NCBI GenBank assembly: GCA_016800925.1 | Contig: JABCPU010000099.1 | Coordinates: 122,668-186,667 of the forward strand | DNA: 64,000 nucleotides | Direction: 5' to 3' | Origin: Suillus spraguei | Taxonomy: Eukaryota > Basidiomycota > Agaricomycetes > Boletales > Suillaceae | In this document: piece by piece, positions 17,533 to 56,093 of the stretch | How the letters are laid out: each line of letters opens with the position of its first letter | How positions within the stretch are numbered: the first letter of the stretch is position 1 | The notes under the pieces: generated by a model | Seen by the model: the letters and a program-made list of their open reading frames with translations, nothing else | Databases searched by the model: none | What the model was told of the DNA's origin: nothing | Position numbers and translations under genes: made by a program

Positions 17533-17602
17533 TACATGCATAGGCAGAGACTTATCTACCACTGAAGAACTCCCCACGCAAGATTTCAGTCTGGAGGTCG
17601 TA

Positions 17603-21191: not shown

Positions 21192-21249
21192 ACTCGTTTC
21201 GAACAGGTTGGCTCTTTCAGATGTGGGAACCGTTGCATAATGGCACAAA

Positions 21250-21991
21250 CAAGGAGTTGACATTGACCGTGACAGAATTGAGCACGCCTAATATTAAATC
21301 ACCTCTTACACCACCCCTCTACTACGCACCCTCCCATATCCGAAGAACAGATTCACACACAAATCTCCTCGCTGCGGCAAACCGTGCCTACAGATGTGGC
21401 ATTGAATTTTTATGACATGCTCGAACAACTGAGGGCTCCTCGCTTCGCAAATTGCAGACTTCATCTACCTTGCATTTCATTCCGTGTCACGGAAGTCAGA
21501 TGGAGGCGCGGTCTAGCCCAGGAGACTCTCATCATGTATGGAATCAAGGCAAACGGGCTCCAAGACCTACTGATCACCACTGAAGACACCCTGGTTCAGT
21601 TTACGCGGCAAAAGCCCATTCAGCATCAGCAGACATTCTTACTTGTCCGTCCATGGGATCGGTATCTCCTGGGGATAGCTGACTTTGCGGAGCATGCAGG
21701 TTTCACAGACGATGTTGAAAGCATGGGAGATTGGAACGAGCCCGGGTCACAAACGACTCCCAAATGGACGACTCTGGCGAGCTATCCAGCGGTTTGCCTG
21801 TTGAAGAGGAGGCTGCTTCACGAGCGTTGCGGTTGATGGTTTACTTCGGACAGCCTTTTGACGCACTTTTGTTAGCGCAGCAGCTTATCGGAGAATACAA
21901 GAGCATTGCGTCGGACCATAACATCATTGCACAAGTCAAAGACATTGCTTCGGTTGATAACATGGATGTCGGTATCATGGAAATACTCTAG
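21250..21991 (+). pseudogene. HET-family C-terminal fragment (left arm, frameshifted)
   Basis: This encodes only the region after the HET domain: TVPTDVALNFYDMLEQLRAP, LHLPCISFRVTEVRWRRGLA, TFLLVRPWDRYLLG, ending VGIMEIL. A loss of about four bases near 21750 (GGGTCACAAACG, against GGGTCCCCGACAAACG in the inverted copy) shifts the frame. There is no HET domain upstream, so the duplication captured or kept only the 3' half. Confidence 0.8.
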
Positions 21992-21999
21992 CTATGGGT

Positions 22000-22659
22000 A
22001 TTTTAAAGACTAGGAATTTTTGATAAGTAGTCGCTTGTGTTTCGGTGATGAATACCTCCATTGTTACCATGTAGATGCATGCACAGATACCTCACACCCT
22101 TCACAGCAGATATTGTGGACGTTCTACCTTCTCTATTAGCACCGTCATCAATTGCTGTGTAGATTGATGAACACCTCGCCCCAAGAGTTTGATTCATCAT
22201 ATTAAATTTTCTGTTCTACATACTTGACTTCGTGCGATAACTCGCTTCGATCAAAAAAATCAAAAAAACGAATATCCTGCTAGATTTTTCCTGGACGACA
22301 GTGCTGGCTAATGGTTCAGACGACCATACAGCGAAGTTGTGGAGTAAATAGGTACTCTACTATGATGGAGACACAACAATAACTAGAACTACACTAGACC
22401 TACCTTCCTGCGATGTTCGGATAGGTCACCATAGGCATTATCAGGCTCCTGCATTCCTCCACGTACAACATGTATAGTGCCACGTCTGTGCCCGATATGA
22501 AATATACATTCTAGTGAAGAAACATCAGGGCATACAAAGATACTTACAATAGCCTGCAGTGCCTAATGATCGTTCAGGGCTAATTTGGGTTTTGCTGGCA
22601 TTTCTCTCAGCGTCAGGGTGAGTTTCATGTACAACAACGGATTAGAATTACATTACCAG
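22000..22659. other. HET 3' flank, WD40 scrap and start of the peptide module
   Basis: The shared HET 3' flank runs to about 22200. At 22291-22350 the frame WTTVLANGSDDHTAKLWSK is a single WD40 blade ending in a stop. From about 22400 the sequence is collinear with the 9.8-kb and 15.2-kb modules. Confidence 0.55.
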
Positions 22660-22862
22660 CGTTTCCTAGTGCGCTCCTGTCGGGAGAATGTCAGGAACGG
22701 AACAAATCAAGTCTGATGTCTGCTGGCAGTGCAGATGTCGTCTGTTTGAAGATATGTTTCAGATGGGCAGGATCTGCACACCATTTAGCACATAAAAGCA
22801 AGCCATCCTCCCACCGTCCCCTTCAGCTTCAGTTTTGCATCCCAGATAACATCTCACAAACA
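22660..22862 (+). promoter_or_regulatory. Conserved peptide-gene promoter, copy C
   Basis: It has CAAGTCTGATGTCTGCTGGC, ATAAAAG at 22792-22798 and AACATCTCACAAACA before the ATG, as in copies A and B. Confidence 0.7.
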
Positions 22863-23012
22863 ATGCGTCACTCCTTCATCCTCTTAGTTGCTGCTGCTTT
22901 CAGCTTGACAGCAGCTATGCCTGCCGATAGCAATTATTGTCCAGAATGTTGCCGTTGGTGCAAGGGCGAGTTTTACTGCTGTGACCCGAACCCCCGGCGC
23001 AGTAGAATATGA
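22863..23012 (+). CDS. Small secreted cysteine-rich peptide C (49 aa)
   Basis: The signal peptide is MRHSFILLVAAAFSLTAA. The mature part has six cysteines (YCPECCRWCKGEFYCCDPNP), then RRSRI. The inverted twin (54404-54547) has one more C in the CCCCC run after GACCCGAA, so its tail reads PPAQ instead. One of the two lengths is derived, or is an assembly error. It probably acts outside the cell; no family is recognised. Confidence 0.7.
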   Translation: MRHSFILLVAAAFSLTAAMPADSNYCPECCRWCKGEFYCCDPNPRRSRI

Positions 23013-23349
23013 CTCCACTTGTGTGAGCAGGATTAGTTTTCATGTAATCCCATAACTCACCGGGGTGTTAGACCACAATTATGCATGTGTGTTAAACGGG
23101 TCCAATCACCGCAAGCCAACTGCTGATACCCACAAGTAGCAGCTACTGAACTCATCATTTTCGTTGAAGGGCATCTAAAACGGTCGACCGGGGAAAGAAT
23201 GCCATTGTCAAGGATGTGGTTGTCGAAATGATAGTTTGAAGGGCCCGGAACGCCATTACAATATAGTATTGCAAAGAGCCAAATAATAAACCACGCGAGC
23301 AATGCGAAGCAGCATATGAATTGCGTCTGAATGGTCTGCTGCAGCTGCA
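23013..23349 (-). other. Conserved 3' block of peptide module C
   Basis: It is shared with modules A, D and partly B. A minus-strand frame (23057-23383) encodes a hydrophobic helix (FICCFALLAWFIIWLFAILY). It is kept in the inverted twin, but copy A has a TGA in that helix. Coding status is doubtful. Confidence 0.35.
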
Positions 23350-23504
23350 CATCAGGAAAACCCTCCCAAGGCAAATTAGGCAAAATTCATATAATATTGT
23401 AACATTAGCATAATAACAGCTGTTTATCTACAAAGTTGCTAAAGATGATAATGTCAGACGAGTTTTTTTTGAACAAGGCAAGAATTATCGAGAATTATCG
23501 AGAA

Positions 23505-26500
23505 TTATCTGAACATTGAAAAAGTATATCTATCTATGTACGAGTTCAACCAGAAGGTGTCACAGTCCTCAAGCACTGTATCACTTGTCCACTCTCGCGG
23601 GGCTATGACACCAAACCTCGGAATAAGATGAACACTGCGCTCGATATCGGCTACTGGCACAATACTAGCCACAGTTTCACCTCCACGCAGTGATCGCGAG
23701 AGCTTATATAGCCCGCTATTGCGGTCTGGAGCTGGCGGAAATGGTGTAAACCACTCGACATACGCAAGGTGAGTAGGAAGATGGACCGTTGGTGGGAAGA
23801 GCAGTGGGATAGATTTTGGGGGAAGGTGAACATGACTCGAACTTGACCAACACGGAAATCTAGCATCAATACAAAGTAAGTAATACATACTAACGCTGAC
23901 TGACAGATAACGCACCTCGAAGATCCTTCGCATTCATACCCACCCTCACCAGAGCTGTATCGGATCGGCGAGCAGTGAGGTGAGCACCCACATTGCGTTG
24001 TGGTTTTGCATGGATGCTGTCCAAAGTAACATGCGCGTCGCCATGGCCACGAGCATCGACCGAGCACCACTTGACCTTATGAAAGACAGGCAGTCGGTGG
24101 AACGGAAAATGAATGTCGCGCGCCAGCACATCAAGTGCTTGACTGTCGAGTGGCGCAGGATCGTTACCTCGACTCTGCTGAGCAATAAAGCGTGCGAGGG
24201 CATCGTGAAAATGAGTAGCGCCGTAATCTGTAGCCAGCTTTTCGAGGCTGACGGACTTCGCGCTAGGGTGTTTTGTCATGACTTGTTCACGGCCGAATGT
24301 CATATCCGGTGGGCGTGAATGATAAGGATCAGCCTGGTGGCCACCAGCAAGTCGCCAACTAACATATTTTTGGTGTCGTAAAATCTTCTCCTTTCGTTCG
24401 AGCCAGCGGGTCATCTGGGCAAACTCATCCTTGTGATTCGTAGCGCGGTAGGCATCTTTCGCCAAGTCGATATGGAGCCGTTCTGTGTACTCTGTGTTAT
24501 AATTGTCAGTAGAGCCGAACAGCATGATCATCAAATGATAGTGACGAGCAGCATGCAACTTCGGTAGGTTAAAGTTGTTTCGAATGCCGAGCTCGACGAA
24601 AATAAGCTTGTTTTCATGAAAAAGGTCCAGTGCCTCGTCCAGCAACTGAAGGGTCTCGGTGCTATGGCAAGGGTATTGCGCGAGGTACAGGAAATCAAGA
24701 AGCCCTCTAACAGCTCGTAGCAGACGACCTGCATTGAGATTGTTGGGCAGACGAATATCGATTATGATGCCGAGGAGGAAGCGGCATATCTGGGCATGTT
24801 CAGTGCCGCTTACGCGTGATAAGGTGGTGATACCCTTGGCGAATAATCTAATGTGATGGTTGGGAGGAAGGCGTCGACAACGAGCATCTATTTCTGTGGC
24901 TCCACAAGCGGCCTCTAACCATGCTAAAAGGTGTTTCACCAAGCCCTGGTATAGCTGATGCAACACATCAGGCGTGACACCCTGAAAAATGTTCGCGAAC
25001 GGCAGTCCCTCCCAGAAAGGATGTATCAAAGGTTTGATTCCTACTGCGGCACATGCGCGAACAAAGGCGAGATTGCCTTGATCGAGTGCCGCGAGTGCAT
25101 CCAGCACCTCACCAATATTTCGTAGGTGAAGTGGTACCGTATTGCTTTCAGTGTCGTCCTTCTCAACATCACATTTCGGGCAGTCACCAAACTTGATCCC
25201 TGTTGCGAGAAGCTGCTCGGGATAATCACCAACAAAACTCGCAAATAAAGGGTGGCAGCGGCGAAGAGCGCCATCACCACTGCGCATATTGATGCCCTCT
25301 AATCCAGCATGTTGCAATGGAGCAAGGACGCGACTCATGCAAGCGTGATATAAGTTTGCAATAGACCGACGGCGTGAGGCCTTATTGGTGATGTGCTCAA
25401 GTCGAGTAGTTGGTAGATAGGCCAGAAGGATATGTCCCCCTCGCGAAGGTTTACGGCGAATTTCCTTCGGGATGTTACCAATCGTGAGATACATCGGGTA
25501 TGCGGACTTGTTGCGAAACATAGTGACTTGAGTTTTGTCCGTCGAGATGATAATCGGAATGATGGTCCCACCAGGACGATGCTGATCAAGTTTTTTCTAA
25601 GGCATTATAAGTTACGAAGTTCAATTGATGTCACATAACAGTACTTACCTGCGTGTTCCACCACCACTTTCCAGTATGCATATCATGAAACAGACGAATG
25701 GTCTGATCCTCGTCAGTGTAATGGCGCTCCGGAGCGAATGTAAGGTATCTCGCAAAGTCGGGATCGCCGTACAGTGACTTGATGCATTCGATGATGTCAC
25801 GGTAATACACATCAAAGGATTCTCCTGCGACGACGACCTGCTCCCGTTTGAATTTGGGGCGTCCAGTTGGAAGTTCGTGGTCGATAATCTTGTTAAGTTC
25901 GTTGGCGTTCTTGAATGACAACCCTAAACGTTCGCTAACCTAGTAGTATTGGCTATAAATGAGTGGAACTTGTGAAGTGGCGAAAGAACTTACTCCATCA
26001 ATGGAGAGCAGGTCCGAAAATGCTGTAGAAGTTGCTCCGCGAAGCTTCGCCCATCTCGCAACCTCCCATTCGATCTGGGAATTGAAAGGATGGTATGGAT
26101 TCTCGTCATTGGCGAGATGTGCGCCATATGCTGCATTGGCACCATGGTCAACTGAGCCATGCGACATACTCCGCCGGCCAGCACGTGGATCAGGATAGGG
26201 CACCCTAACAAATCCAGAGTGGCCTCGTGCGCGAGCCTCGATGTCTTGACGAGCGTTCTGTTGATCCTCCAACTCGTCATCCGCAAAGGCATCGTCCAGT
26301 AGGTCCAAGTCATTGTCTTCATCGGCCTGAGGTTGCGATGGTGCAGCCTCCCATTCAGGTTCGAAGAGCAGATGATCATCGAAATCATCCTCATCACTAT
26401 CAGCTGCGTGCTCACTCGCAGCAGGCCTCTCTAACTCATCCTCATTTCCGTTATAGTCTCCCTCAAAGAAATCGGCGTCATCGAAGGCAAGCTCAGCTTC

Positions 26501-26656
26501 GTTGGCTTCGTTCAAGGCTTCGTTGTTTGTTCTTGATCGCGACTGGCTGTAGAGTGCGTGACAACGTGGGTCGCGACTCTTTGCGATATGCTGGCTGAGT
26601 CCAGTTACGGTGAGATCATCACGGCCACAAGCTGAACAAGTTCGGTGACCATCCAT
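23505..26656 (-). CDS. Plavaka family transposase
   Basis: The start is placed at MDGHRTCSACGRDDLTVTGL, the usual N-terminal C2H2-like finger of the family; an upstream in-frame start at 26797 adds serine-rich sequence. An acidic linker follows (DEDNDLDLLDDAFADDELED), then IEWEVARWAKLRGATSTAFS. Further exons follow (25921-25670; 25598-about 23930; the last to 23505), with the characteristic MFRNKSAYPMYLTIGNIPKE, GYL-like AYLPTTRLEHI and GVTPDVLHQLYQGLVKHL. The final exon holds HLAYVEWFTPF and APREWTS. Near 23815 the frame shifts by one base in a G5/C5 run (a C6 would restore it), so it is either a recent knock-out or a base-calling error. It moves the element by DNA cut and paste. Confidence 0.8.
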
Positions 26657-27307
26657 AGTTATAATGGTGGGGGATGAAGACGAAGCTGAAACGATGGGAG
26701 TGAGGGATGAAGACGAAGCTGAAACGATGTCAAAATGAAAAAGGGTAAGGGTGTGGTAGGGATGGGCAGGTAGTATGGGACCATGTACAGCGGCCATAGT
26801 GAGCAGAACGGGCTGGATGATGGTGTCGCGAAGAGCTGGTCCAATTTGCCGTCATTACAGGGTAGTCAGTGCCCGATCAACCTAGCAAATATTAGCACTG
26901 CAGCCGCCAGTAAAGCGAGGGAAAACATACTAAGTTGTGCTTTGACGGTGGTGGTACTGGTACTGGCTCGTGTTTTGGGATACCTGGGGATGATGATGGG
27001 TATCCGAGTCATGGGATACCTGGGGACGATGACTGGGGACGACGATGCTGGTGGGGCAGTGTCACGAAAGTCAGGGACAGCCTACAGCGCCGCCGATACA
27101 GTGCCGGTGAAAATACAGTTTAGCGCCCTTCACTGCTGCTACATAATTGCCCTGTTACATTGCGTTAGTAAAATTTTCAGTCCCATTCCCTTCCGTTTGA
27201 CCATCACTCACATTCGTTTTAAAAAAATCTGCACGGCACCCTCGACGCTCCTTTATTCTTTCAAGTCCTACACATTCTAAGTCTCAAAAACAAAGAAATA
27301 TTAATAA

Positions 27308-29440
27308 ATGACTTTACCTCGGCAGGATCAAGGTAAGTGAGTATAAGCAACTCGGCAAGTGACTGACTGTGAGGCTCGACAGAAGCGCGTGGTGCCAAGA
27401 AAAAAGCTATCGAAAACGCAGGTGAGCGACCGAAAACACCATCAATAAATCAAACTGACCTGAGATTCAGTTTGGAAGCAAGATAAACCAAGACGCAAGA
27501 ATGCGACAGCGACATCAGCCCAAGACTGTCCTGCCACAAAAAAGAGAACTGACGCGTTGGCACCGGCGCCTACTCCAAGTCGGAACTCCAGCTCCACTGG
27601 CAAGTCAAACAGGACTATGGTGTCAAGAAAGCCGTCAACACTGAGTCCGTTGATACACTTGAAACTGATTTATGGTACTTACATGGAAAAATGTTGGGCA
27701 CTGGCAGAGCGTCCGCGCAACATGAGCGACTCAGATGATGGTATCTTGCAGGCTCCACTGATGGTTGATAAGCAACTTGAAGGTCAGCCTACGCCGTGAC
27801 CAAAAAGGAAGTCCGAGTCTCACATGATCATCTTGTGCAGCGCAGCCTAACTATCGACGACCAGCGAAACTCTGCCGAACTTACGCTATGAGAGATGTGG
27901 CGTTGCCTGAAGATGAAGATGAGGAGCAGAGTGCTGACTCTGATACGAGTCGGCCCAGGGACAAACCGAGTCGGGACAACTTACTAACCGATTCAGACGG
28001 TAGTGATCATGAGAGCAGTGCCACTGACAGCGAGGATGAAGATTCGGCTGCAATGAAGCTTTTCGATGAGGTCAGCTTTATTATATCATATGCTTGTGGA
28101 CTCACGTTTGATACTTTCAAGGTCGCGTCGGTCGTCACCAACAAGCAGCAGGTAGCATCGAAATCACGTGGCACTTCAAAAGCCGAGTTCAAGGCCCGAG
28201 ATCACAAACAAGCGGCGGAGACTCCTACCTGGGCCAATATGGATGTTGAAGATGCAGTTTCGGAGTCCATTGAAGATCGCTCGACTGGTGGCAACTCGTC
28301 AGAATTTCAATCTGACGATGAAGGTACTGCACCGACTCGGAAACTTCAAACCTCAGACACGAAGACTCGGAGTATCGCCTCACTCGTTCGAACAGAAAGT
28401 GGAAAGGTGAAATTACTTGATCAGAACATAGAGACTCGCAGAGTTCTTCAGTCCGCAATCATGGAAGTCAAGTGCCACCTTTTTTTCGCCAACGGCTACC
28501 CTGAATTGGTTGACAAGAACCAAGTCGCGCTGCAAGCATTGATAGTAGTCGCCGAAAAACGTGGTGTGCATCCAATCAAAGAATGTCTTCAATCAGACGT
28601 TAGGTATGCGTCACAACTCGGTAGCTTGGTGAGTTCAACTTGCACCCTTTCTTATCAGTCTCTAACCATATGCGAGGTGGATGCTCGTGTTCCAATATTG
28701 CGCCGTGAGCTGAAGGAAGACGCATGTGCGAATGCCGATGGTTACTTTCGCCTTGGACACACCGACTCTGGGAAAGCTGCAGCGAGAAGGCTGTTGGATA
28801 AGCTTGCATATATATACGCCTTGAAGTTTGATGTGAGATCTCTCCCCTTGCCTGTACTACTGACATTGTTGAAATTATACAGATCAATAACGAGGCTTCG
28901 CCCATTGGGAAGAAGCCCTACCAGGGTGAACTCTTACTTTTCTTAATATATCGGCAGCTCTTTCATAGCTCGAGGTCCATTGCCATCAAGTTTACGGAAC
29001 GCTTCGTCGAAATCGCCAACAACAAAGGCCAGCGCCCCGAAGTCCCTATCCCTTTGCTGGCATTGGTTGCAACTGCGGTAACGTGCTTGTCGTCATTGTA
29101 CGGATGTGCCGTCTAACTCGTTGCAAAGGTGTATGCAGCCCTTCTGTGGAAGTCGCAAGGTTCACCGTCGAAATTCAACTTTACAGGAAATTTATTCAGC
29201 GAGACATACAACTACCATGTCAGGTTCCTGGAAAAACTGAAGAAGGACGCACCTGCGAAATTCCACTGTATGATGGCCGACATCTATGAGGCTGCGCAGT
29301 GAGTTCCACTTAGGTAGTATTCCCTCGATGCTCACTCTGCTTGCAGGAAGTTGCGATACAGCGGCGCCGCTGCCAGTGGCCATGCTGCTGAGCTCGAAGC
29401 ATTCGAGTTACTTGACCTCGACAATATGGAAGAAGACTGA
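27308..29440 (+). CDS. DUF6532 domain protein, transposon passenger
   Basis: Small first exons (ATG at 27308, MTLPRQDQ) join a basic, serine-rich region (KKRTDALAPAPTPSRNSSS). An acidic region (27888 onward) leads to the conserved part: HLFFANGYPELVDKNQVALQ, REL-KEDACANADGYFRLG, GKKPYQGELLL and FRSIAIKF-like SRSIAIKFTERFVEIANNKG. It then continues across introns at about 29083-29129 and 29300-29345, to LRYSGAAASGHAAELEAFEL and a TGA at 29438. Proteins of this type often lie inside Plavaka-like elements in Agaricomycetes (from memory). Its role is unknown. The middle exon boundaries (27700-27890, 28070-28125, 28630-28680, 28830-28885) are approximate. Confidence 0.65.
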
Positions 29441-29828
29441 TTCATCCCCCACTTGTTTTCATGGTGTACAATACGGAATTGTGAAGCTGATACATAGTCT
29501 CCTGGTTGATCATAGCGCGCACTGTTATTTAAATTACCCTACTAGCCCATATACCCATTTTTAATCAAATTTAATTTTGTTCTTGTTATCTTATTCTGTC
29601 TGATTCGGTTGGAACTCTCGTCTAAGATCAAACAATTAATTCTACAAGTCATGATAATGTGTTTGAATAACTGAAAATCATTGCTAATTCTTGTGTTTTT
29701 ATTAGGGGGTAAAAAAACCGAACTAAGCTTGCTAAAACTTGAATTTGTATAATTTAGACATAATAACGCAGGATTAGTTCTAATGTTGCATCTTTAGTCA
29801 AATTTGTTGGGGGAGGGTTTTCCTGATG

Positions 29829-30095
29829 CATTTTGCCATCGGTGTCGAGATCGACAAAAGCTAAAAACAAACGTCATGCCTTCCAGGAGGAAAATATAGT
29901 CAAGAATGACGACTTGGTAATCTTTCACCAGCGCACGAGTTAGAATCGGCAGAGATCTTTCTCCAACACAAAAGTCCGGTTCGGACCGTAGTTCTGGACT
30001 GGACCCCGGCAGCACTAGTATAAATGGACGGTCATATTTAGCAGGAGCAAATATCTACCCATCTATAATCTTCATGGTTACAATATCGAAGACTT
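29829..30095. other. Left-arm sequence between Plavaka and HET fragment 2
   Basis: It is identical in content to 53795-54060. A minus-strand frame (29794-30015; plus strand at 53875-54153) encodes SLPILTRALVKDYQVVILDY and FCRSRHRWQNA. I do not recognise it. Confidence 0.3.
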
Positions 30096-30720
30096 TTGGA
30101 TCCACTAATGTCCTTGCTACAGAAGACCGTGCCTACAGAACTGGCATTGAAATTTTATGACAAGCTTGACCAGCTGAGAGCTCCTCGCTTCGCAAATTGC
30201 AGGCTTCATCTGCCTTGTATTTCATCCCGTGTCACGGAAATCAGACGGAGGCGCGGTCTAGCCCAGCACTTTCATCACGTATGGAATCAAGGCATACGGG
30301 CTCCGGGACCTGCTGATTACCACTGAAGAGACACTAGTTCCTAGTTCTCGTGGGCAAAGCCTATTCGGCAGGCGTTCCGTTACTTGTCCGTCTATGGGAT
30401 CAGTAATGATCTCCTTGGGGTACCTGACTTTACAGAGCAGGCTGACTTCACAGACAATATTGAAAGCATAGGAGATTGGCCCGAACCCGGGTCCCTGATG
30501 GACGACTCTGATGAGTTACCCGGCGGTTCGTCTATTTCGGAGGAGCCAGAACTTACGAGCGTTGCGGTTGATGGTTCGCCTCGGACAGCGTTTTGACGCA
30601 TTTCTGTTGGCGCAACAGCGTGTCGGAGAATACAAGATCGGACCGTAACATCATTGCACAAGTGAAAGACATTGCTTCGGTTGATAACATGGATGTTGGT
30701 AGAAATACTCTAGCTATAGA
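30096..30720 (+). pseudogene. HET-family C-terminal fragment 2 (left arm)
   Basis: It starts LLQKTVPTELALKFYDKLDQ and follows the family to the ...AEIL-type end near 30712. Small indels break it (LAQHFHHVWNQG at about 30270, a gain near 30345, one extra base near 30550). It is nearly identical to 53172-53794, so these breaks predate the duplication. Confidence 0.75.
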
Positions 30721-31013
30721 TATTTAATAACTAGGGATCTCTGACAGATAGTCGTTTGTGTTTCAATGATATACCTGCATTGTTACCATGTAGATACACA
30801 CATAGATGCCTTCACAGTAGACATTGTAGAAGGACGGTGAATATATTTACAAGCATGTTAATCAACCGTATGTACGTATATACTTGAATCCATATCATCA
30901 CGCCGCGACATTCATAACCGTAGGCAACCTCTTGTAATGTTGGAAATCAACCCGCCAACATCATGATACTAATACATGGACGTAACTTGCTCAATGCCAG
31001 CGGACTTGCGACA
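30721..31013. other. HET 3' flank and downstream flank of the CorA-like gene
   Basis: No gene. It holds the empty target GTAGAA (about 30826) at which the right-arm copy carries a 5.9-kb transposon. Confidence 0.5.
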
Positions 31014-36050: not shown

Positions 36051-36061
36051 CCTCCCCCCAA
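36051..36061 (-). promoter_or_regulatory. Polypurine tract
   Basis: On the minus strand TTGGGGGGAGG lies directly before the 3' LTR, the expected position of the plus-strand primer. Confidence 0.75.
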
Positions 36062-36102
36062 CTACAGATATCGACCGTCCTCGGTCGATCCACAAAACAA
36101 AT

Positions 36103-43365: not shown

Positions 43366-43380
43366 TCGCGGTGGGCTCCA
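43363..43380 (-). promoter_or_regulatory. Primer-binding site
   Basis: Three bases after the 5' LTR, the minus strand reads TGGAGCCCACCGCGAGGG, an 18-base tract starting TGG and so complementary to a tRNA 3' end (CCA). I cannot name the tRNA. Confidence 0.6.
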
Positions 43381-43383
43381 ATA

Positions 43384-44021: not shown

Positions 44022-44646
44022 GTTCATATTAACAAAATACCTACCATCCTAGAGGGCCGAGCTGCAGGAAAATGTTTCTCAGAGGGTGAACCACCAGGAA
44101 CATGACAATACATATGACCCCAGGGACTGATCCTGCTGACCTATACTCTTGATATGTTGTATATACTAGTAAAGAGATGTTAGAAATAATGTTTACCAGT
44201 TTATATACCTAAACACCAAAAATGCGAACTGGTTTATGTTTTTTGAGAGGTATTCATGAATTTAACATATCTACTGATGTAGGACACTCCAGAGGCTCAA
44301 ACAAGCGGTGTAATATATTCATTAACACTCTAATATATGATATATACAGTCAGAATTGCTTCCCTGCTGAAGGGGCAAAATATCGAATATGTTTTGGTCC
44401 TGGGATGCACATATTGTAGTCAATACTGTAGACTGCTGTACAAGCTCTCAGACAATGAAAAAAGCAGTCTATTGTATCATTTTATGTATGTACATGCCAT
44501 TCTACTACTTATATACATGAGTGAGCAAGGGGAAAGCTCTGGTGCAGCAGTAGAGCTAGGGAGGTATGTGGGAATAGTGAGATTATTGGAATATCCCAAT
44601 TTGGTGATTTTTCCCGGTGGTAGTGCTATTATTGGAAGCCTGAGAA
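44022..44646 (-). repeat. Foldback right arm, outer part
   Basis: It is the reverse complement of 33901-34520. It ends GCCTGAGAA, where similarity to the left arm stops. I find no clear target duplication outside the foldback. Confidence 0.85.
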
Positions 44647-46634: not shown

Positions 46635-46924
46635 AGTCTATCTTTACAATGAACGTCAAAGAGATTAACAGTGGGACACAAACACTCGCTCACTATGCGG
46701 TGGCCACCGCTTTGCTCACGCTTCTTACGACTTACGTCATCATCATGCTTCAGCAACGGGGCTGGGTTCACAAACGTGAAGCTACCTTGCTGCAGCGTGC
46801 ACTATGGCCCGTTCATTTACTCTGGAGGCTCGTACGTTGTCGACTTCCGCCCCAGTTGACTCAGAGTATAAGTAACTGGAGACAAAGGACGAGCAAAGAG
46901 GGTGGCGAAAGTAGGACTGTCTGA
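46635..46924 (+). pseudogene. Duplicated last exon of the CorA-like gene
   Basis: It encodes SIFTMNVKEINSGTQTL and the final hydrophobic helix exactly as the left arm does, ending at the same stop. No upstream exons exist here. Confidence 0.8.
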
Positions 46925-47448
46925 TGTCGCAAGTCCGCTGGCATTGAGCAAGTTACGTCCATGTATTAGTATCATGATGTTGGCGGGTTGATTTCCAACA
47001 TTACAAGAGGTTGCCTACGGTTATGAATGTCGCGGCCGTGATGATATGGATTCAAGTATATACGTACATACGGTTGATTAACATGCTTGTAAATATACTC
47101 ACCGTCCTTCTACTATGGAAAGCCAGACCACCGTGCTCTGTTTCCAAGTCTTCTACTTCTCAGAACCTTCCTAGTAAGGCAAGTAGCTTCTGTTGGCCTC
47201 CGGACACCCCGTGCGACTCACGACTGTTCAAAAATCTAAATTTCATCGACCTTTAATTATAATGCGTGCGCAGGAGCTTCGGCTGCAAGAAATATAAGAA
47301 CAGACGATGAACAAACATAGCACTCAGTGTCGTAACTTTCATCTACAGAATCAACTTCAAACCAGCCATTCACAAACATGCGAACACCCTGTGCGTCCAT
47401 TTAGTGCGTCACATGATGTAGATTTATATATAAAATGTAGTCTGTAGG

Positions 47449-49358
47449 CTACCATTGATCAGCGATGCTAATCTCATCACTTTCGTTATCGGAGAAATCC
47501 CAAACAACAAGACCATTGTGATCGAGCCCTATAAGGTCGACATCTCCATCAACAGAAACATCAGGCTCATCCTCTTCGATGAGGCTATCCAACTGTTGAT
47601 GGTGTACCGTATCTGATATGAGATGTCAATTGAGAGTGTCGAAAGGAGAGTCATGCAGTGTCTTACCCAGCCCTAATCCACCGCCAACATCACCCATATA
47701 GTAGCCATCCTCGTTGAATGGCAGATCTTGATGGTTATTGAGCAGCGGTAAATCCTCCAGTTCCTCATCTGAATATTCATCAGAGACATCAAGGAGCGCG
47801 GAGTTGTTGCCATGCTGGAGCTTATCGAGCAAATCATGATAGACAGTCCATGCTGAGTCACGGTCAACGATGGGACAGCCTATTTCTTCATAGCACAGTT
47901 GGATATAATCGTTCAGGTTGGGAGGCACAAGGTCAAAGACGGGATGGCTTGGATTAATGTAGACTCCCCAAACGTGGTCAATAGCATCTTGTTCGACAGT
48001 GATCTGATGATAACAAAAACGTGAGGAAAAGAAACCTAGAAGGAGGATACATGATGACGTACCTTGAAGTCAAGAGCCCCGAAATCTTCGGGCGTGTTGT
48101 AGATGAGATTGGGGACACCATGGGGAAGTACCTTGTTGCGATCACGCCGCTTCGCTGTGTTGTTCACGCGGTCCCGGCATGCATCAAGTTCGCGCTGTAG
48201 CCAAGGAATGAAGACCCAACGGAATACCATTCTGAAGTGGCAATGATTAATATTTAATATATCACCAGCATCATGAACAGAAAACTTACACTTGGAGCGT
48301 GTTGCTACTGTCATACCAACCTTCATTGACTCCTCGGTCCAGTATTGATTCGAAGCCGGGAGTAAAACGTCTACGTAGCTGCGACCATGTAATCTCAGGC
48401 ATTACGTTCTTCTTCGTTCGCATCCAACGATGCTGAAGTGTGCCTTGCAATGCAGGGTCATGCCATTGCCATAGCATGGTGTGGGCATTTGCAATACCGT
48501 AGTTCTCAGTACCTGGGTCGCTTTGTGTTACCATAGGCATATCTAAAATAATCTTGTGAATCATTCAAGTGACTAATAGGATAGAAATACTTATGACCGA
48601 GAGTCTGAATGGTATCTAAGTAGTAACTGAGGATAAGCTGTGGGTTCCTGTTAGAATGCCAGACACGGATCCAGAGGATGCGCCCTGAGAATGGCTCAAT
48701 TCCAGTGTGCAGTGCGAGACCGAATCTTAACCATTTATCATGTTGATCTACGGCAAATAAGTCATTGACCCCTGCAGCCCAAAAACGTTTCCTTTTCAAA
48801 CGTTGTGCCTTCCGCTCCGCACAAGGTCTGGCTCATAAGCTGCGAAATAAGCTCGTACTACAGTCCTGTATAAGTTCCAAATGAGTTGCGCTTGCTGCCA
48901 TTGAAGTGACAAAAAACAAAACATATGTACCTGGCTACACTCATGCCTTTTTCATGGAACAGGAGGCTGATCATCTCCCTTGCTCCGGCGTTGGGATAAA
49001 ATTGACGTAGGTCAAGCATGGCTTCGCGAATGGATTCAATGGTGTGCCCTTGCTGATGAGTTCGTCGAAGACCCATGCTAAGACGGATCTCTACAAATTT
49101 TGTAAGCCTTGAGCGAGCGAGTCAGTGCTGTGACTTGGAATGTCTGAGATAGTGTAGAAAGTACTCACCCAAGTCCATAACATTCAGTGTCAAAATGTTT
49201 CCGCAAACCATCTACAATCTGTTTGTCTGTTTGACGTGCCTTCCATAACTGAAGGATGTGAGGTGCAATCTCATCAAGGGGTGCTAGGGCCGATTGTCAA
49301 TGACGAAGTCTGAAATCATCAAAAAGATACGCACGAGTTGGTTTGTATTGGTTGGGCA
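47449..49358 (-). pseudogene. Integrase-core (DDE) transposase, one frameshift
   Basis: It begins MPNQYKPTRA, followed after an intron by PLDEIAPHILQLWKARQTDK. Then come MGLRRTHQQGHTIESIREAM and FHEKGMSVAR, KRFWAAGVNDLFAVDQHDKW (first catalytic Asp in AVDQ), PMVTQSDPGTENYGIANAHT (second Asp), LRRRFTPGFESILDRGVNEG and RWVFIPWLQRELDACRDRVN (likely Glu). It ends with an acidic tail to IADQW. Eight or so exons splice by GT-AG. Near 48818 one base is missing in GTGCGGAGCGG compared with the expected ...VRQRKAQRLKRKRFW reading, which knocks the frame. Otherwise all catalytic parts are present, so loss is recent or an error. Confidence 0.75.
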
Positions 49359-49549
49359 TACCTGGTATGAATCAGCCAGTGCTAATACTACTAAGGAGAA
49401 ACACAAAATACTTAAAGCGTTTAGTTCCCAAGGCCACCGAGGACGAAGCATATCTGCAGCGACTGAGGCTCCAAGCCAGAGAACAATAATTACGTGTCCG
49501 CAGCTGGTGAGATTCCTGTCTTCAGAGTTGAGAATGTCGGTGGCTATGT

Positions 49550-49965
49550 TCTTACCTGAAGAGTAAATTCAAGTCGGACCGAGTCTCACTGGATCCCTGG
49601 ATCCTCTATCTTCACTGCGCTGCTCTGCACCATGTTCAGGCTGACTTACCTGAAGAGTAAATCAGGCGGAGTCTCACCGGATCCTCTATCTCCGCTAGTA
49701 CTTTCGTCACCCGACGAGCAGGTCTTTTCACAATTGAAATGCAAATTAAGCTATCTACTTTGGCTGATCATGAAGTTTGAAGGCACAATGTCACCAAGTC
49801 TTGCAAAGGCATCGCTGGATTAAGGGCCAAGTCTCACTAAATCCTCTATCTCTGGGACTATGTTCTTACCTGAAGAGTAAATCGGGCCGAGTCTCACTGA
49901 TCCTCTATCCTCACTGCGCTGCTCTGCACCATGTTCAAGCTGACTTACCCTGAAGAGTAAAGCGT
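49550..49965 (+). repeat. Direct repeats in the transposon's divergent promoter region
   Basis: TTCTTACCTGAAGAGTAAAT with GAGTCTCAC(T/C)GGATCC, CCTCTATC and CACTGCGCTGCTCTGCACCA recurs at about 49552, 49645, 49830 and 49863. The region separates the transposase from the kinase gene. It may contain promoter repeats. Confidence 0.65.
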
Positions 49966-50050
49966 CAAAGCAAGATTTTGTATTTAATGGGCCGTTCTCT
50001 GGTACCCAAGTTTTATTGCTATCCCTCACCACCTCTGCTCAACCCCAACA

Positions 50051-52842
50051 ATGTCTGGGTTTGAATTAGTATCTCAGTTCACCGAAGATGCATTTGCGAA
50101 GAAGGATCAAGTATGCGAACGTCCTGCCTGCAGTGCCATGATTTTCAGGGGTGACCCCTGTTTTTATGTGGGCACTATAGACCCTGGGAAACCAGGTCGT
50201 AATGTCTGCAGTTCTTGTCATGAACGGTACCGAGGGAAGCTAGCTACGTCCGTGAGACCCACAACTAACAGTGAGTTTTCTACCGCTTATACTTGAAGTC
50301 TGGCACTGATAAGTCTGCTTGGCTGTCACTTGCAGGACGAGACATGATGTCAAACCGTGAATTGCCAGATCCACATGTTATCCGACAATCTGTCAATGCT
50401 GCGCAACGAAAGTGTAAGTAGACCGATAGCATTTTACATCATACGAGTCTTACAGTTATTCAGCAACACTTAACCCACCACCTGTGGTGGCCATGGCACG
50501 CTCCACCATGGGTCCCAATGTCAATGTGCCATCAACATGGCAGCGTCCGATCCAACCCTCCAGTTCTAATTCACAGGCTATGGGCTCACGGGCCTCTGGT
50601 TACTCTTCACACCATGCTCATTATGGGTCCGAACGCGAGCGCTGGGCTAAGCTTTCGTATGCCATACCAGCAGCACAGACCATTTCTCTGGAAATCTCGG
50701 CTGTTCATGAGGGCGGGGTCAGGCGAAAGGGTAGTCGTGGCATTACTATTGGGGTATGTGTTTTATCTTCAGAATTGTGGATTGGTTATTAATGATATAT
50801 CTCTAGAACATTTGTGAGGGCCTAAAGGATATCGATGCTCGTATCGATGCACCTGGACTTATAACAATCGCACTTGATACCATCCTGCCAAAGATCCGGA
50901 CTTTTTGTTCTGATTTTGTCTGGTATGACAACGAGTTTGTTGTGCGGGATGGAAAATGGGTAGATCTCTCCACTCACCAGGCCGGACAACCTTACTTCCT
51001 CGATCAATGCTTACAAGCAAGTCGCAAAGCTTCGAAGCCAGTGATCTTCAAGTCAAAACAGTTCTCATTAATGGTAGTCGCACCTCAAACACGCTGGCTA
51101 GAATATGAAGACTGGATGGAACGAGTTGCAGAAGAGGTAAAGTATCATGTTTTATTCTGCGTGTCAACCGGTTGCTTAATCAGATGTATTTTAGGCTGCT
51201 ACCAGCCGTACCACCAACCATACTACTGGTCGTACCACCGATTGTACCACCAGTCGTACCACCAGTCATACCGCCAGTCATACCGCCAGTCATACCGCCA
51301 GTCATACCGCCAGTCATACCGCCAGTCATACCGCCAGTCATACCACCAGTCATACCTTGAGCCATACCGTGCAGAGTGATGCAACCGGGGACGATGAACC
51401 CCTGCAATATGACTATACACAAGCTCAGCAGGTGAAATCCCACTCTGTTTCAGAGCTCTGAGAGAAACTAACCATGTGTTCTAGACTAGTGCAGCCTTCG
51501 AGGGCGATGTGTCTGCAGCTCAGACTATATTGTCTACTAAGCGGACTCATGTACGAACCGAGAGCAGTCATAATGCTTTACCTCCATCTCCGCCACTCAA
51601 AAAGATTGCGCCAGCAGTTATATTTCACTCGCCCGACCGTAATGACCTGAAAGCGGCCCTTAAGTCAGGTGGTACCGCAAATCTCAATGTGAAGAAAGGT
51701 AAGAGTTCTACGCTTATATCCTTCCACGAACTAATGGATGGTGTTTGTACCTAGTATTTGAAAGACAGAGTGAAACTATACATTTCTACCCCATCCCTAA
51801 TCGCCCTCTAATGGAGATCTTACGAAACAAGGATTATCGCTCATTTACGCTCGACACTGCCGAGTCTTATGTTGGCCAGTTGATGGTTGACATATCCCAT
51901 GACAGCACTATTGGGATGGGTGGGTTCAAGACGGCCCATCCAGGATGGCTCACCCTCACTCCTCCTCCAGTTTCCGGACTTGGTTCAGTTCCGCGTGACG
52001 AAATCGTGGTCAAACGGCCCTTTCACAGAGTTTTTTCACAGGCTGGCGGGTCGACTGAAGCCTTCAAGATCGGCAGGTTTCCCGTCGTAGATGAATTGCC
52101 AAAGCTTTTTCGAGAAGCCAACGTGCTATACTGGGCAAGCTCCCTTTTACAACTTACATACGACTTCATCGACCATCGACGTGCTACCTATTGTCCTCCT
52201 CCGTTCCCAGTACCACGAGTACGATTTGTGCAAGCTGGCCTTGCATTAGCATTTGTGCAAGGTCAAGCAGTCATAGCGGCTCCCTCTGGCAAACTGGGCT
52301 CAAAAAGCATCATGCCAGGGTTGAAGCCCTGCCCTATTCGAGCAGCTTATCTGCTCGAAGAACTCATTGACGGCGGTGACGATGCATTTGTCAAATTCAT
52401 TCATAACATGGACGCTGATCCTTTGCTCGACGAACTTGACTATGGCTATGATTTAGCGGTATTCTTCGCATTCACTCAACACGTTCAATATGTGAAGACT
52501 GGTGGTTTAGCATTCATATCTGACTACCAAGGTATGCATCTCTCCTTAATGACAATCCTGTGCTCACAAAACTCGTTGACCCTCAGGAAGCACGTCACTA
52601 CTGACTGACCCTCAAATATTGACAGACCCGTGCGTATGCTCTCGATCTCCGGCTCCAGTGGTTGTTGACATCCTATTATAATCAGCTCGGTCAGCGATGG
52701 ACAGGATATCTTTGGTGAAGGGAACATAGAAGTCGCGGTCACCATGTTCGAGGCGCAGCACGTCTGCAATGATTATTGTGAATGGGCTGGATTAGAGAAG
52801 TTTCAGTCAGCCGACTCTGTAGATGAAACTCACGATACTTAG
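50051..52842 (+). CDS. Alpha-type (MHCK/EF2K-like) protein kinase, transposon cargo
   Basis: There are about eight exons: 50051-50270, 50336-50413, about 50457-50753, about 50807-51136, about 51195-51432, about 51485-51698, about 51754-52531 and two short ones to the TAG at 52840. The N-terminal part has paired cysteines (CERPACSAMIFRGD, CSSCHERY), a possible zinc module. A repeat-rich linker follows. The kinase domain includes SVPRDEIVVKRPF, FVQAGLALAFVQGQ, RAAYLLEELI, FVKFIHNMDADPLL, AVFFAFTQHVQYVKTGGLAF and SDYQG. After two introns come LLTDPQILTDP, then IFGEGNIEVAV (GxGN-type loop) and HVCNDYCEW (zinc-binding H/C/C). It is complete and intact. It phosphorylates proteins; targets are unknown. 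Confidence 0.8.
51190..51365 (+). repeat. 12-bp coding minisatellite in the kinase linker
   Basis: The unit AGTCATACCGCC (with variants AGTCGTACCACC) is repeated about 13 times and encodes SHTA/SRTT tetrapeptides in the kinase frame. The unit length of 12 keeps the frame at any copy number. Confidence 0.8.
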
Positions 52843-53171
52843 TACTGTATTTGTTGATCGTTTGTTCTCACAAAACATATTTCTTGCAGCCGAAGCTCTT
52901 GCGCACGCATCATAATTAAAGGTCATTAAAATTCAGATTTTTGAACAGTCGATGAGTCGCACGGGGTGTCCGGAGGCCAACAGAAGCACTTGCCTTACTA
53001 GGAAGGTTCTGAGAAGTAGAAGACTTGGAAACAGAGCACGGTGGTCTGGCTTTCCATATTCTACAATGTCTACTGCGAATATATCTATGCATGTATCTAC
53101 ATGGTAACAATGCAGGTATATCATTGAAACACAAACGACTATCTGTCAGAGATCCCTAGTTATTAAATATC

Positions 53172-53794
53172 TATAGCTAGAGTATTTCTACCAACATCCA
53201 TGTTATCAACCGAAGCAATGTCTTTCACTTGTGCAATGATGTTACGGTCCGATCTTGTATTCTCCGACACGCTGTTGCGCCAACAGAAATGCGTCAAAAC
53301 GCTGTCCGAGGCGAACCATCAACCGCAACGCTCGTAAGTTCTGGCTCCTCCGAAATAGACGAACCGCCGGGTAACTCATCAGAGTCGTCCATCAGGGACC
53401 CGGGTTCGGGCCAATCTCCTATGCTTTCAATATTGTCTGTGAAGTCAGCCTGCTCTGTAAAGTCAGGTACCCCAAGGAGATCATTACTGATCCCATAGAC
53501 GGACAAGTAACGGAACGCCTGCCGAATAGGCTTTGCCCACGAGAACTAGGAACTAGTGTCTCTTCAGTGGTAATCAGCAGGTCCCGGAGCCCGTATGCCT
53601 TGATTCCATACGTGATGAAAGTGCTGGGCTAGACCGCGCCTCCGTCTGATTTCCGTGACACGGGATGAAATACAAGGCAGATGAAGCCTGCAATTTGCGA
53701 AGCGAGGAGCTCTCAGCTGGTCAAGCTTGTCATAAAATTTCAATGCCAGTTCTGTAGGCACGGTCTTCTGTAGCAAGGACATTAGTGGATCCAA
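53172..53794 (-). pseudogene. HET-family C-terminal fragment 2 (right arm)
   Basis: It is the inverted twin of 30096-30720 with the same internal breaks (LAQHFHHVWNQG and others). It has no HET domain. Confidence 0.75.
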
Positions 53795-54032
53795 AAGTCT
53801 TCGATATTGTAACCATGAAGATTATAGATGGGTAGATATTTGCTCCTGCTAAATATGACCGTCCATTTATACTAGTGCTGCCGGGGTCCAGTCCAGAACT
53901 ACGGTCCGAACCGGACTTTTGTGTTGGAGAAAGATCTCTGCCGATTCTAACTCGTGCGCTGGTGAAAGATTACCAAGTCGTCATTCTTGACTATATTTTC
54001 CTCCTGGAAGGCATGACGTTTGTTTTTAGCTT

Positions 54033-54352
54033 TTGTCGATCTCGACACCGATGGCAAAATGCAGCTGCAGCAGACCATTCAGACGCAATTCATATGCTGC
54101 TTCGCATTGCTCGCGTGGTTTATTATTTGGCTCTTTGCAATACTATATTGTAATGGCGTTCCGGGCCCTTCAAACTATCATTTCGACAACCACATCCTTG
54201 ACAATGGCATTCTTTCCCCGGTCGACCGTTTTAGATGCCCTTCAACGAAAATGATGAGTTCAGTAGCTGCTACTTGTGGGTATCAGCAGTTGGCTTGCGG
54301 TGATTGGACCCGTTTAACACACATGCATAATTGTGGTCTAACACCCCGGTGA
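54033..54352 (+). other. Conserved block behind peptide gene D with a hydrophobic frame
   Basis: The plus strand has a frame with FICCFALLAWFIIWLFAILY and, in another frame, MAFRALQTIISTTTSLTMAF, which stays open in modules A, B, C and D. It may be a 3' UTR or regulatory block rather than a gene. Confidence 0.3.
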
Positions 54353-54403
54353 GTTATGGGATTACATGAAAACTAATCCTGCTCACACAAGTGGAGTCAT
54401 ATT

Positions 54404-54547
54404 CTACTGCGCCGGGGGGTTCGGGTCACAGCAGTAAAACTCGCCCTTGCACCAACGGCAACATTCTGGACAATAATTGCTATCGGCAGGCATAGCTGCT
54501 GTCAAGCTGAAAGCAGCAGCAACTAAGAGGATGAAGGAGTGACGCAT
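54404..54547 (-). CDS. Small secreted cysteine-rich peptide D (47 aa)
   Basis: It is identical to peptide C for the first 44 residues: signal peptide MRHSFILLVAAAFSLTAA, then the six-cysteine stretch ending CCDPNP. A C6 run (C5 in peptide C) changes the tail to PAQ and the stop. It is the inverted twin of gene C. Confidence 0.7.
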   Translation of the reverse strand: MRHSFILLVAAAFSLTAAMPADSNYCPECCRWCKGEFYCCDPNPPAQ

Positions 54548-54750
54548 TGTTTGTGAGATGTTATCTGGGATGCAAAAACTGAAGCTGAAGGGGACAGTGG
54601 GAGGATGGCTTGCTTTTATGTGCTAAATGGTGTGCAGATCCTGCCCATCTGAAACATATCTTCGAACAGACGACATCTGCACTGCCAGCAGACATCAGAC
54701 TTGATTTGTTCCGTTCCTGACATTCTCTCGACAGGAGCGCACTAGGAAAC
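54548..54750 (-). promoter_or_regulatory. Conserved peptide-gene promoter, copy D
   Basis: It is the inverse of copy C. CATAAAAGC (minus strand; plus 54612-54620) lies about 70 bases before the ATG, and the GTCTGATGTCTGCTGGCAGT core is at about 54675-54695. Confidence 0.7.
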
Positions 54751-55385
54751 GCTGGTAATGTAATTCTAATCCGTTGTTGTACATGCAACTCACCCTGACG
54801 CTGAGAGAAATGCCAGCAAAACCCAAATTAGCCCTGAACGATAATTAGGCACTGCAGGCTATTGTAAGTATCTCTGTATGCCCTGATGTTTCTTCACTAG
54901 AATGTATATTTCATATCGGGCACAGACGTGGCACTATACATGTTGTACGTGGAGGAATGCAGGAGCCTGATAATGCCTATGGTGACCTATCCGAACATCG
55001 CAGGAAGGTAGGTCTAGTGTAGTTCTAGTTATTGTTGTATCTCCATTATAGTAGAGTACCTATTTACTCCGCAGCTTCGCTGTATGGTCGTCTGAACCAT
55101 TGGCCAGCACTGTCGTCTAGGAAAAATCTAGCAGGATATTCGTTTTTTTTAATTTTTTTGTGATCGAAGCGAGTTATCGCACGAAGTCAAGTATGTAGAA
55201 CAGAAAATTTAATATGGATGAATCAAACTCTTGGGGGCGGGGTGTTCATCAATCTACACAGCAATTGATGACGGTGCCAATGGAGAAGGTAGAGCGTCCA
55301 CAATATCTGCTTTGAAGGGTGTGAGGTATCACCGAAACACAAGCGACTACTTATCAGAAATTCCTAGTCTTTGAAATACCCATAG
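54751..55385. other. Right-arm twin of 22000-22650
   Basis: It contains the inverted WD40 blade (55063-55118) and the HET 3' flank. At the WD40 stretch the twin reads through a slightly different sequence (CGACGACAG becomes AGACGACAG). No gene. Confidence 0.5.
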
Positions 55386-56075
55386 CTAGAGTATTTCCAT
55401 GATACCGACATCCATGTTAACAACCGAAGCATGTCTCTTGTATTCTCCGATAAGCTGCTGCGCTAACAAAAATGCGTCAAAAGGCTGTCCGAGGTGAACC
55501 ATCAACCGCAACGCTCGTGAAGCAACCTCCTCTTCAACAGGCAAACCGCTGGATGGCTCGTCAGAGTCGTCCATTTGGGAGTCGTTTGTCGGGGACCCGG
55601 GCTCGTTCCAATCTCCCATGCTTTCAACATCGTCTGTGAAACCTGCATGCTCCGCAAAGTCAGCTATCCCCAGGAGATACCGATTCCATGGACGGACAAG
55701 TAAGAATGTCTGCTGATGCTGAATGGGCTTTTGCCGCGTAAACTGAACCAGGGTGTCTTCAGTGGTGATCAGTAGGTCTTGGAGCCCGTTTGCCTTGATT
55801 CCATACATGATGAGAGTCTCCTGGGCTAGACCGCGCCTCCGTCTGACTTCCGTGACACGGAATGAAATGCAAGGTAGATGAAGTCTGCAATTTGCGAAGC
55901 GAGGAGCCCTCAGTTGTTCAAGCATGTCATAAAATTTCAATGCCACATCTGTAGGCACGGTTTGCCGCAGCGAGGAGATTTGTGTGTGAATCTGATCTTC
56001 GGATATGGGAGGGTGCGTAGAGGGGTGGTGTAAGAGGTGATCAGGCGTGCTCAATTCTGTCACAGTCAATGTCAA
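55386..56075 (-). pseudogene. HET-family C-terminal fragment (right arm, open frame of 229 codons)
   Basis: Unlike its twin at 21250-21991, this copy is open from MTLTVTELSTPDHL to VGIMEIL. It contains LRQTVPTDVALKFYDMLEQL and RFANCRLHLPCISFRVTEVR. A deletion of about 39 bp near 55432 removes the DHNIIAQVKDIAS stretch without breaking the frame. It lacks a HET domain. A truncated protein could be made if a promoter were present; I see none. Confidence 0.7.
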
Positions 56076-56093
56076 CTCTTTGTTTGTACCATT

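Follow-up and report, generated by a model that had tools for sequence, protein, structure and literature searches.

An apparent inversion of a transposon-rich spacer between partly homogenised inverted repeats in Suillus spraguei

The window analysed here, a 64,000-nucleotide stretch of a Suillus spraguei contig, contains two arms (L arm, 21238-31303; R arm, 46635-56094) which repeat one ~3.5-kb block in inverse orientation to each other and enclose a 15.3-kb spacer (Table 1). Self-BLAST of the window yielded three arm-to-arm matches, all with E=0 and hence far above chance: (i) 56094-54060 inverse to 21238-23349 (outer pair; 93.6 % with gaps, 40 mismatches and 10 indels), (ii) 29827-30831 versus 54063-53059 (99.4 %), and (iii) 30822-31303 versus 47117-46635 (99.2 %). 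The similarity is uneven, since the outer 1.6 kb carry 40 substitutions and several indels between the window arms, and the inner ~2.0 kb just 8 substitutions, six of them packed into 16 bp beside the right insertion site (R-arm patch 53076-53091). A search of the window for a paralogous source of this patch, within six substitutions, matched the two arms alone. The inverse copying of one 3.5-kb block, noted in a first-pass annotation, is thereby borne out, as are its coordinates for the left arm; the right arm ends at 56094 instead of 56093.

Table 1. Features of the inverted-repeat locus (window coordinates; aabb, variants grouping by haplotype; abab, variants grouping by position)
Feature	Position	Strand	Basis or remark
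L arm, outer part	21238..22850	+	diverged from R arm; variants group by chromosome position across haplotypes
HET-family C-terminal fragment in L arm outer part	21298-22149		self-BLAST
L arm, homogenised part left of Plavaka	22851..23349	+	6 aabb, 0 abab
PlavakaB DNA transposon, haplotype-specific	23350..29828	-	TSD CA; PF18759 on two minus-strand ORFs
L arm, inner part, homogenised	29829..31303	+	12 aabb, 0 abab in 29831-31303
HET-family fragment in L arm inner part	30103-30830		self-BLAST
CorA-like gene, 3' portion (extent approximate)	31017..32318	-	PF01544; crosses spacer/L-arm border
Left 855-bp TIR of multicopy ~2.13-kb element	33901..34755	+	self-BLAST
Right TIR of ~2.13-kb element	35179-35410 + 44022-44646		split by retrotransposon
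LTR retrotransposon inside ~2.13-kb element	35412..44021	-	LTRs and Pfam domains
1.4-kb repeat with TG..CA ends, within retrotransposon	40317..41732	.	TSD GAAGT
Right TIR, outer part	44022..44646	-	self-BLAST
R arm, inner part with truncated copy of CorA-like last exon	46635..47113	-	self-BLAST, alignment
IS3EU DNA transposon, haplotype-specific	47114..53058	+	TSD GTAGAA; alpha-kinase-like ORF (+), integrase-core-like ORFs (-)
R arm, remainder (inverse of 21238-23349 + 29829-30830)	53059..56094	-	self-BLAST, alignment
Right flank with DNA polymerase alpha gene (minus strand)	56095..64000	.	PF12254, E=1.1e-19 on 60563-61951

The spacer is nested, a 2.1-kb TIR element being interrupted by an 8.6-kb LTR retrotransposon which in turn contains the 1.4-kb TG..CA repeat. 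Two facing arms of the TIR element were found at no fewer than seven other loci (40 of 74 candidates scored). The LTRs (35412-36050 and 43384-44021) differ at 16 of 638 positions, by transitions only, and the domains PF17921, PF17919, PF17917, PF00078 and PF13650, in the order protease-RT-RNaseH-integrase, indicate what we take to be a Ty3-type retrotransposon. It occupies the same site in the window and in an allelic contig (C293), from which the 1.4-kb repeat, read as a solo LTR, is missing at this site.

At the spacer/L-arm border lies a CorA-like gene (PF01544 match on 31321-31767, E=1.4e-7), the 3' splice site of which coincides with the border; judged by eye and from paralogs, the last exon adjoins 31303 within the arm, and the intron position is the same in four genomic paralogs. 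Since the last exon belongs to the arm, it is kept in both orientations of the spacer. The other arm holds a decapitated copy, and from the CorA-like gene it seems likely that the arm end next to CorA is the original one and the other end a truncated copy. The non-CorA spacer end belongs to a dispersed family (of 9 paralogous matches, 4 break off at query 427, at a distance of 8 bp from the border with the arm). Homology that would make both spacer ends CorA paralogs was also searched for, and the matches were weak even at best (E=0.018 in tblastx, 0.052 in blastn). An ORF across 21238 made the left outer junction look original, but this reading was dropped, because the flank at that point belongs to a dispersed repeat which stops 11-14 bp short of the arm (of 40 listed matches, 7 end at query 324-327).

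The left arm is split by a 6479-bp insert with the ends CATCAGG..CCTGATG and, judged against the empty sites, a 2-bp TSD (CA). Matches to the Plavaka transposase (PF18759; E=1.2e-81 and 1.3e-28) on two ORFs, together with termini (CATCA..TGATG) and a TSD length (2-3 bp) as given for the PlavakaB class (Kojima 2025, PMC12730594), confirm the Plavaka element recognised earlier. Of 48 candidates in the same genome 40 were scored, and at least eleven full-length copies, that of the window included, reach a rounded identity of 100 %.

The insert in the right arm comprises 5945 bp, with the ends TATGGAAAGCC..GGCTTTCCATA and a 6-bp TSD (GTAGAA, again versus empty sites). Its TATGG..CCATA termini, TSD length and TIRs of ~240 bp (89 % alike) agree with the IS3EU class, described from rust-fungus families with a 6-bp TSD, TAYGG..CCRTA ends, TIRs over 30 bp and oppositely oriented transposase and alpha-kinase genes (PMC12730594). 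The integrase-type transposase (PF24764; E=3.7e-4 and 0.051) stayed below the curated cut-off, as did the alpha-kinase match (PF02816, E=0.15) of the oppositely oriented ORF 51703-52605, and the window is absent from the 29 genomic PF02816 matches. A genomic locus which itself lies above the cut-off (L021) matches this ORF with 53 % identity across 266 aa (E=4e-76), and by this likeness the insert carries an alpha-kinase gene opposed to its putative transposase. The alpha-kinase transposon of the first-pass annotation is thus an IS3EU element, with a weak Pfam match of the ORF itself. In the account of the rust-fungus elements, a TET/JBP gene lies between the two genes (PMC12730594); none was seen among the ORFs scanned here. 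Among 40 of 570 candidates scored, at least three full-length copies (99-100 %), including that of the window, were found in the genome.

Neither insertion site is interrupted in the opposite arm of the window or in either arm of C293, the three empty sites per element being without footprint. The element ends and target duplications proposed before are accordingly exact, and the later date of both insertions relative to the duplication is strengthened by their lack from both C293 arms.

Blocks of 94-99.5 % identity link C293 to the window and to the 30 kb upstream of it, and outside the arms the two are collinear, bar one swapped block pair upstream; we infer that the window contig and C293 represent the two nuclei of one dikaryon. 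The outer flanks keep the window orientation in C293 (outerL +, 99.4 %; outerR +, 99.0 %), and 3.6 kb of the right flank (56400-60000) occur at exactly two places of the assembly in the same orientation (2 of 2 candidates). The inner flanks, by contrast with this, lie on the minus strand (innerL at 155072-154776, 99.7 %; innerR at 131314-131017, 98.7 %). Two spacer segments were each found full-length at two places, in plus orientation on C1246 and in minus orientation on C293, segment 1 among 40 of 284 candidates scored and segment 2 only there (7 of 7 candidates). At contig level, both orientations of the spacer thus occur at the orthologous place, bounded by the same near-identical inverted repeats and with unchanged outer flanks, but with neither arm insertion in C293. 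Haplotype divergence is not clearly higher at the spacer ends (two stretches with 9 and 20 differences, together 29 over ~4.5 kb, 0.65 %) than in the flanks (104 over ~23 kb, 0.45 %, three stretches measured); flank block 1-3091 has 44 mismatches, and the last 8.7 kb differ mainly by indels (14 mismatches, 36 gaps). The first-pass annotation had regarded the duplication, on account of its spacer, as a potential source of palindrome-mediated rearrangement, which understated the case. It contained neither the inversion nor the homogenisation pattern nor the CorA-like gene across the arm border.

Variants were classified in a four-arm alignment of the window (WL, WR) and C293 (CL, CR) arms as grouping by position (abab) or by haplotype (aabb). 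Outer-flank identities were taken from a separate search per flank; the alignment columns mix unrelated flanks (WR-CR 89/211). Informative events in 21238-22850 were 15 abab, 0 aabb and 1 abba, those in 22851-31302 18 aabb, 0 abab and 0 abba (Fisher p=9.6e-10 for outer versus inner grouping). In this alignment, then, the inner ~2.0 kb are alike within and different between haplotypes (8 substitutions for WL-WR, 2 for CL-CR), and homogenisation within the haplotype is confined to them, the outer 1.6 kb not being homogenised. A 39-bp indel is among the 15 position-type events, and since both haplotypes share these, the duplication evidently predates the haplotype split, as far as these sequences tell. 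Three of the 15 lie directly beside this indel and may belong to it. A further 27 outer events occur in the window's L arm alone and are left unexplained by a simple two-step history.

The main rival to a true inversion is an assembly artefact, by which the near-identical arms would have led to the spacer being placed backwards in C293, or else in the window contig, although the true haplotypes are collinear. CL and CR are almost the same over ~1.9 kb, where a short-read assembler would misjoin, and both contigs stop at the same base, so that assembly breaks do occur here. However, the assembly crosses near-identical 6.5-kb Plavaka copies (within C1246, and the first of two within C1191) as well as a 473-bp repeat pair in C293 (99.8 % alike, 7.2 kb apart), and reads longer than the 3.6-kb arm therefore seem to have been used. 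Plavaka copies within contigs, the lack of N in the window and in C293 90001-166515, and the indel-rich haplotype differences imply an assembly built from long reads. With the window arms additionally told apart by different large inserts, an artefact is considered unlikely.

Near-identity of the inner arms within haplotypes could also have arisen, in place of gene conversion, through recent duplications that took place independently in the two haplotypes, or through consensus mixing during polishing. The former is opposed by the shared position-type events, which make the duplication older, and the latter should presumably have erased the haplotype differences too, rendering both quite improbable. 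Two opposite insertions of one mobile element, instead of a segmental duplication, might be considered in view of the repeated family pieces in the block (HET fragments elsewhere in the window are 77-87 % like arm pieces in self-BLAST). Yet the 482 bp at the inner arm end exist in exactly four copies, i.e., one inverted pair per haplotype (4 of 4 candidates), inspection of the arm alignment revealed no TIR, LTR or TSD at 21238, 31303, 46635 and 56094, and the inner end cuts the CorA-like gene at an exon border; such an origin is very improbable.

We favour, with a probability of roughly 80 %, an old inverted repeat which was homogenised by gene conversion and underwent crossover, inverting the TE-rich spacer between haplotypes prior to the arm insertions. 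The arms would represent an old inverted segmental duplication of HET-gene-family debris and the CorA-like last exon, the inner portions of which were probably homogenised by arm-to-arm conversion. The spacer was then probably inverted by non-allelic homologous recombination, in which the two arms on a single chromosome crossed over within their homogenised part, either orientation leaving the CorA-like gene its last exon. Later, and in the window haplotype only, PlavakaB would have entered the left and IS3EU the right arm; such large one-arm inserts split the shared homology into short tracts and should lessen further flipping. More tentatively, the locus might flip recurrently in the species, with conversion keeping the inner arms alike, the CorA-like gene always retaining its last exon while facing a HET-gene cluster in one orientation and the DNA polymerase alpha gene in the other, and one-arm transposons serving as accidental orientation locks.

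The closest precedent among the accounts drawn on here is the flip/flop region of Saccharomyces chromosome XIV, in which 24 kb with 15 genes occur in both orientations between 4-kb inverted repeats, with many strains, multiple inversions, arms homogenised within strains, and, in three strains, one arm broken by mobile elements (Salzberg et al. 2022, PMC9731477). Inverted repeat, both orientations, homogenised arms and one-arm mobile elements are shared with the present locus, which differs by its TE-rich spacer with few genes and by the comparison of two haplotypes of one assembly (cf. PMC9731477). In the filamentous fungus Sclerotinia sclerotiorum, a 3.6-kb MAT region lies between 250-bp repeats, likewise inverted partial copies of a gene of the region, and half of the offspring carry it inverted whichever the parent type; one gene is truncated there, whereas the CorA-like gene keeps its last exon (PMC3574095). 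Haplotypes of another ectomycorrhizal bolete, Boletus edulis, also differ by an inversion, which is far larger (0.4 Mb) and for which the consulted portion of the account gives no inverted-repeat mechanism (PMC12134998). Among the openly licensed papers listed, none pointed, in its title or the beginning of its abstract, to an inversion mediated by inverted repeats that distinguishes the nuclei of a Suillus relative, absence from print not being claimed. The arms of human Y palindrome P6 are much longer than those described here. Located on a non-recombining chromosome, P6 is reported with arm similarity above 99.9 %, and likewise with arm-to-arm gene conversion and rare crossover inversion (PMC3723533).

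The rearrangement risk raised by the inverted repeat thus appears to have been realised via a well-known mechanism, turning a predicted hazard into an apparent observed event, with one assembly holding both orientations. Arm-specific transposons and flank- and haplotype-specific variants make the conversion tracts and the rough place of exchange readable in an Agaricomycete. In dikaryotic fungi, small inversions mediated by repeats may thus distinguish one haplotig from the other, and such differences could be taken for errors of assembly.

The first-pass annotation had proposed an inverted duplication carrying a different transposon in each arm, which was borne out by self-comparison of the window and by base-level comparison (duplicated block ~3.5 kb). 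When the whole assembly was searched (G000, 86.2 Mb, 1256 contigs), the inner, spacer-side arm (482 bp) was found in exactly four copies (4 of 4 candidates), two in the window and two, inverted, in a second contig (C293). Compared with the window plus 30 kb upstream, C293 maintains the same order outside the arms, except for one swapped block pair upstream (blocks 94–99.5 % identical), and a 3.6-kb right-flank piece with the DNA polymerase alpha gene is confined to C293 and the window contig C1246, of which the window covers 122668–186667. By sequence comparison, C293 is allelic to the window, and the two contigs presumably represent the two nuclei of a dikaryon. Both contigs end on the same base, with many indels between them.

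Features of the window and their counterparts in C293
Feature	Window	C293	Remarks
Swapped upstream pair	-5071 to -2137	100498-103669	two blocks, ~94–96 % identity
HET-domain/WD40 gene pieces	6700-19850		clustered
~270-bp element	14458-14731	108880-109152	ends CATCAGGAAA..TTTCCTGATG; different sites in the two haplotypes
Dispersed repeat, outer L border	21030-21227
L arm	21238-31303
PlavakaB insert (L arm)	23350-29828		CATCAGG, CCTGATG; TSD CA
~2.13-kb element, 855-bp TIRs	spacer		split by LTR retrotransposon; at least 7 other loci with two facing arms
LTR retrotransposon	35977-40316 (stretch compared)	137071-141410	within 2.13-kb element, same site in both haplotypes
1.4-kb TG..CA repeat	within retrotransposon	absent there	TSD GAAGT
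Dispersed repeat, inner R border	45866-46626
R arm	46635-56094
IS3EU insert (R arm)	47114-53058		TATGG, CCATA; TSD GTAGAA
Six substitutions in 16 bp	53076-53091		R arm of window alone; adjoin IS3EU insertion
Contig end	64000	166515	proline-rich low-complexity stretch

Both outer flanks align to C293 in plus orientation and both inner flanks in minus orientation, each at the opposite arm (window 29827–35422 to C293 156545–150974; 44717–47117 to 132932–130535), and full-length copies of two spacer segments occur on C1246 (+) and C293 (−) alone (40 of 284 candidates scored and 7 of 7, respectively). This arrangement indicates that, at contig level, the inter-arm segment (15.3 kb in the window, 24.1 kb in C293) is inverted between the two. 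Divergence between the contigs is 0.65 % for two spacer stretches together versus 0.45 % for three flank stretches, other flank blocks diverging more than the three measured (44 mismatches in block 1–3091); since the values are close, the inversion does not appear to predate the haplotypes.

To establish how the arms evolved, all four (WL and WR of the window, CL and CR of C293) were aligned with inserts left out, single-arm events being counted as not informative. In the outer part (21238–22850), informative events group 15 times by position, once by orientation and never by haplotype; one of the 15 is a 39-bp indel, of which three immediately adjacent events may form part. In the inner part (22851–31302), all 18 group by haplotype (0 by position, 0 by orientation), and past 31303 the arms group by orientation. 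This succession argues that the duplication predates the haplotypes and that homogenisation of the inner arms took place independently in the two; the spacer-inverting exchange would most simply be placed in the homogenised part. CL–CR differences number 5/442 versus 15/403 for WL–WR at 21958–22399, and 1/450 versus 6/451 at 22400–22850. Single-arm events amount to WL 27, WR 10, CL 7 and CR 6 in the outer part, and to WR 9, CL 2, WL 1 and CR 1 in the inner; part of the WL excess would fit additional conversion of CL in the direction of the R arm. The facing outer TIR parts of the 2.13-kb element display four haplotype-type sites and no position-type site.

With respect to a true inversion or an assembly error, near-identity of the C293 arms over ~1.9 kb counts against the former, whereas resolution of near-identical 6.5-kb elements inside contigs, absence of N in the stretches read and indel-rich differences at the contig end point to an assembly built from long reads, which counts in its favour. 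Overall, we assign a probability of about 0.8 to inverted-repeat arms that were homogenised and whose spacer was inverted between haplotypes.

Both arm insertions are absent from both C293 arms and, on sequence evidence, are recent. The Plavaka element encodes its transposase (Pfam) and has at least 11 full-length copies, the window's own included, whose identity rounds to 100 % (40 of the 48 candidates were scored); IS3EU has at least three, likewise inclusive (99–100 %; 40 of 570 scored). In the latter, integrase-core matches on the minus strand fall below the Pfam cut-off and the plus-strand ORF matches alpha-kinase weakly, but across 266 aa this ORF shares 53 % identity with a genomic copy of the alpha-kinase that clears the cut-off. 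Such ends and TSD lengths are described for PlavakaB and for IS3EU in Kojima 2025 (PMC12730594), as is, for IS3EU, the opposite orientation of transposase and alpha-kinase; the passages on IS3EU deal with rust families. The ~270-bp element (both ends visible in C293, only the right one in the window) looks like a PlavakaB-type MITE. No donor for the six-substitution patch was found within the window. Several other copies of the dispersed repeats stop within ~15 bp of the arm borders.

A CorA-like gene runs leftwards from the spacer into the L arm. Its last intron has the 3' splice site at border 31303, and the arm holds the final exon, with the second membrane helix and the MN motif. Four genomic paralogs (two on C389, one each on C170 and C336) share the two exons, with an intron of 52–60 bp at that place. 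In C293, the gene is oppositely oriented and runs into the other arm; the predicted gene retains its last exon in both orientations. The other inner border carries a decapitated copy. The arms also hold fragments of the neighbouring HET family, which has at least 150 matches in the genome, 150 having been scored out of 204 candidates; among the best 120 of 900 matches, the best named ones of a HET-domain ORF are Suillus proteins (up to 79 %), which points to a bolete close to Suillus.

At another site, C293 has a copy of the 1.4-kb repeat of its own, and its spacer also holds a 676-bp insert and an additional LTR element of 7.6 kb. The common LTR retrotransposon differs between the haplotypes at 161 of 4340 positions, including 152 transitions, at least 117 of them at CpG (24 of undetermined context); one flank compared differs at 49 of ~10,960, with 13 of 32 transitions at CpG. 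This pattern suggests that cytosines of the retrotransposon have been methylated and deaminated.

Inversion between inverted repeats is a known phenomenon: the arms are homogenised at the flip/flop locus of Saccharomyces (PMC9731477) and in P6 of the human Y (PMC3723533), and another example is Sclerotinia MAT (PMC3574095). The present locus is a further case of this kind, with unusually readable markers.
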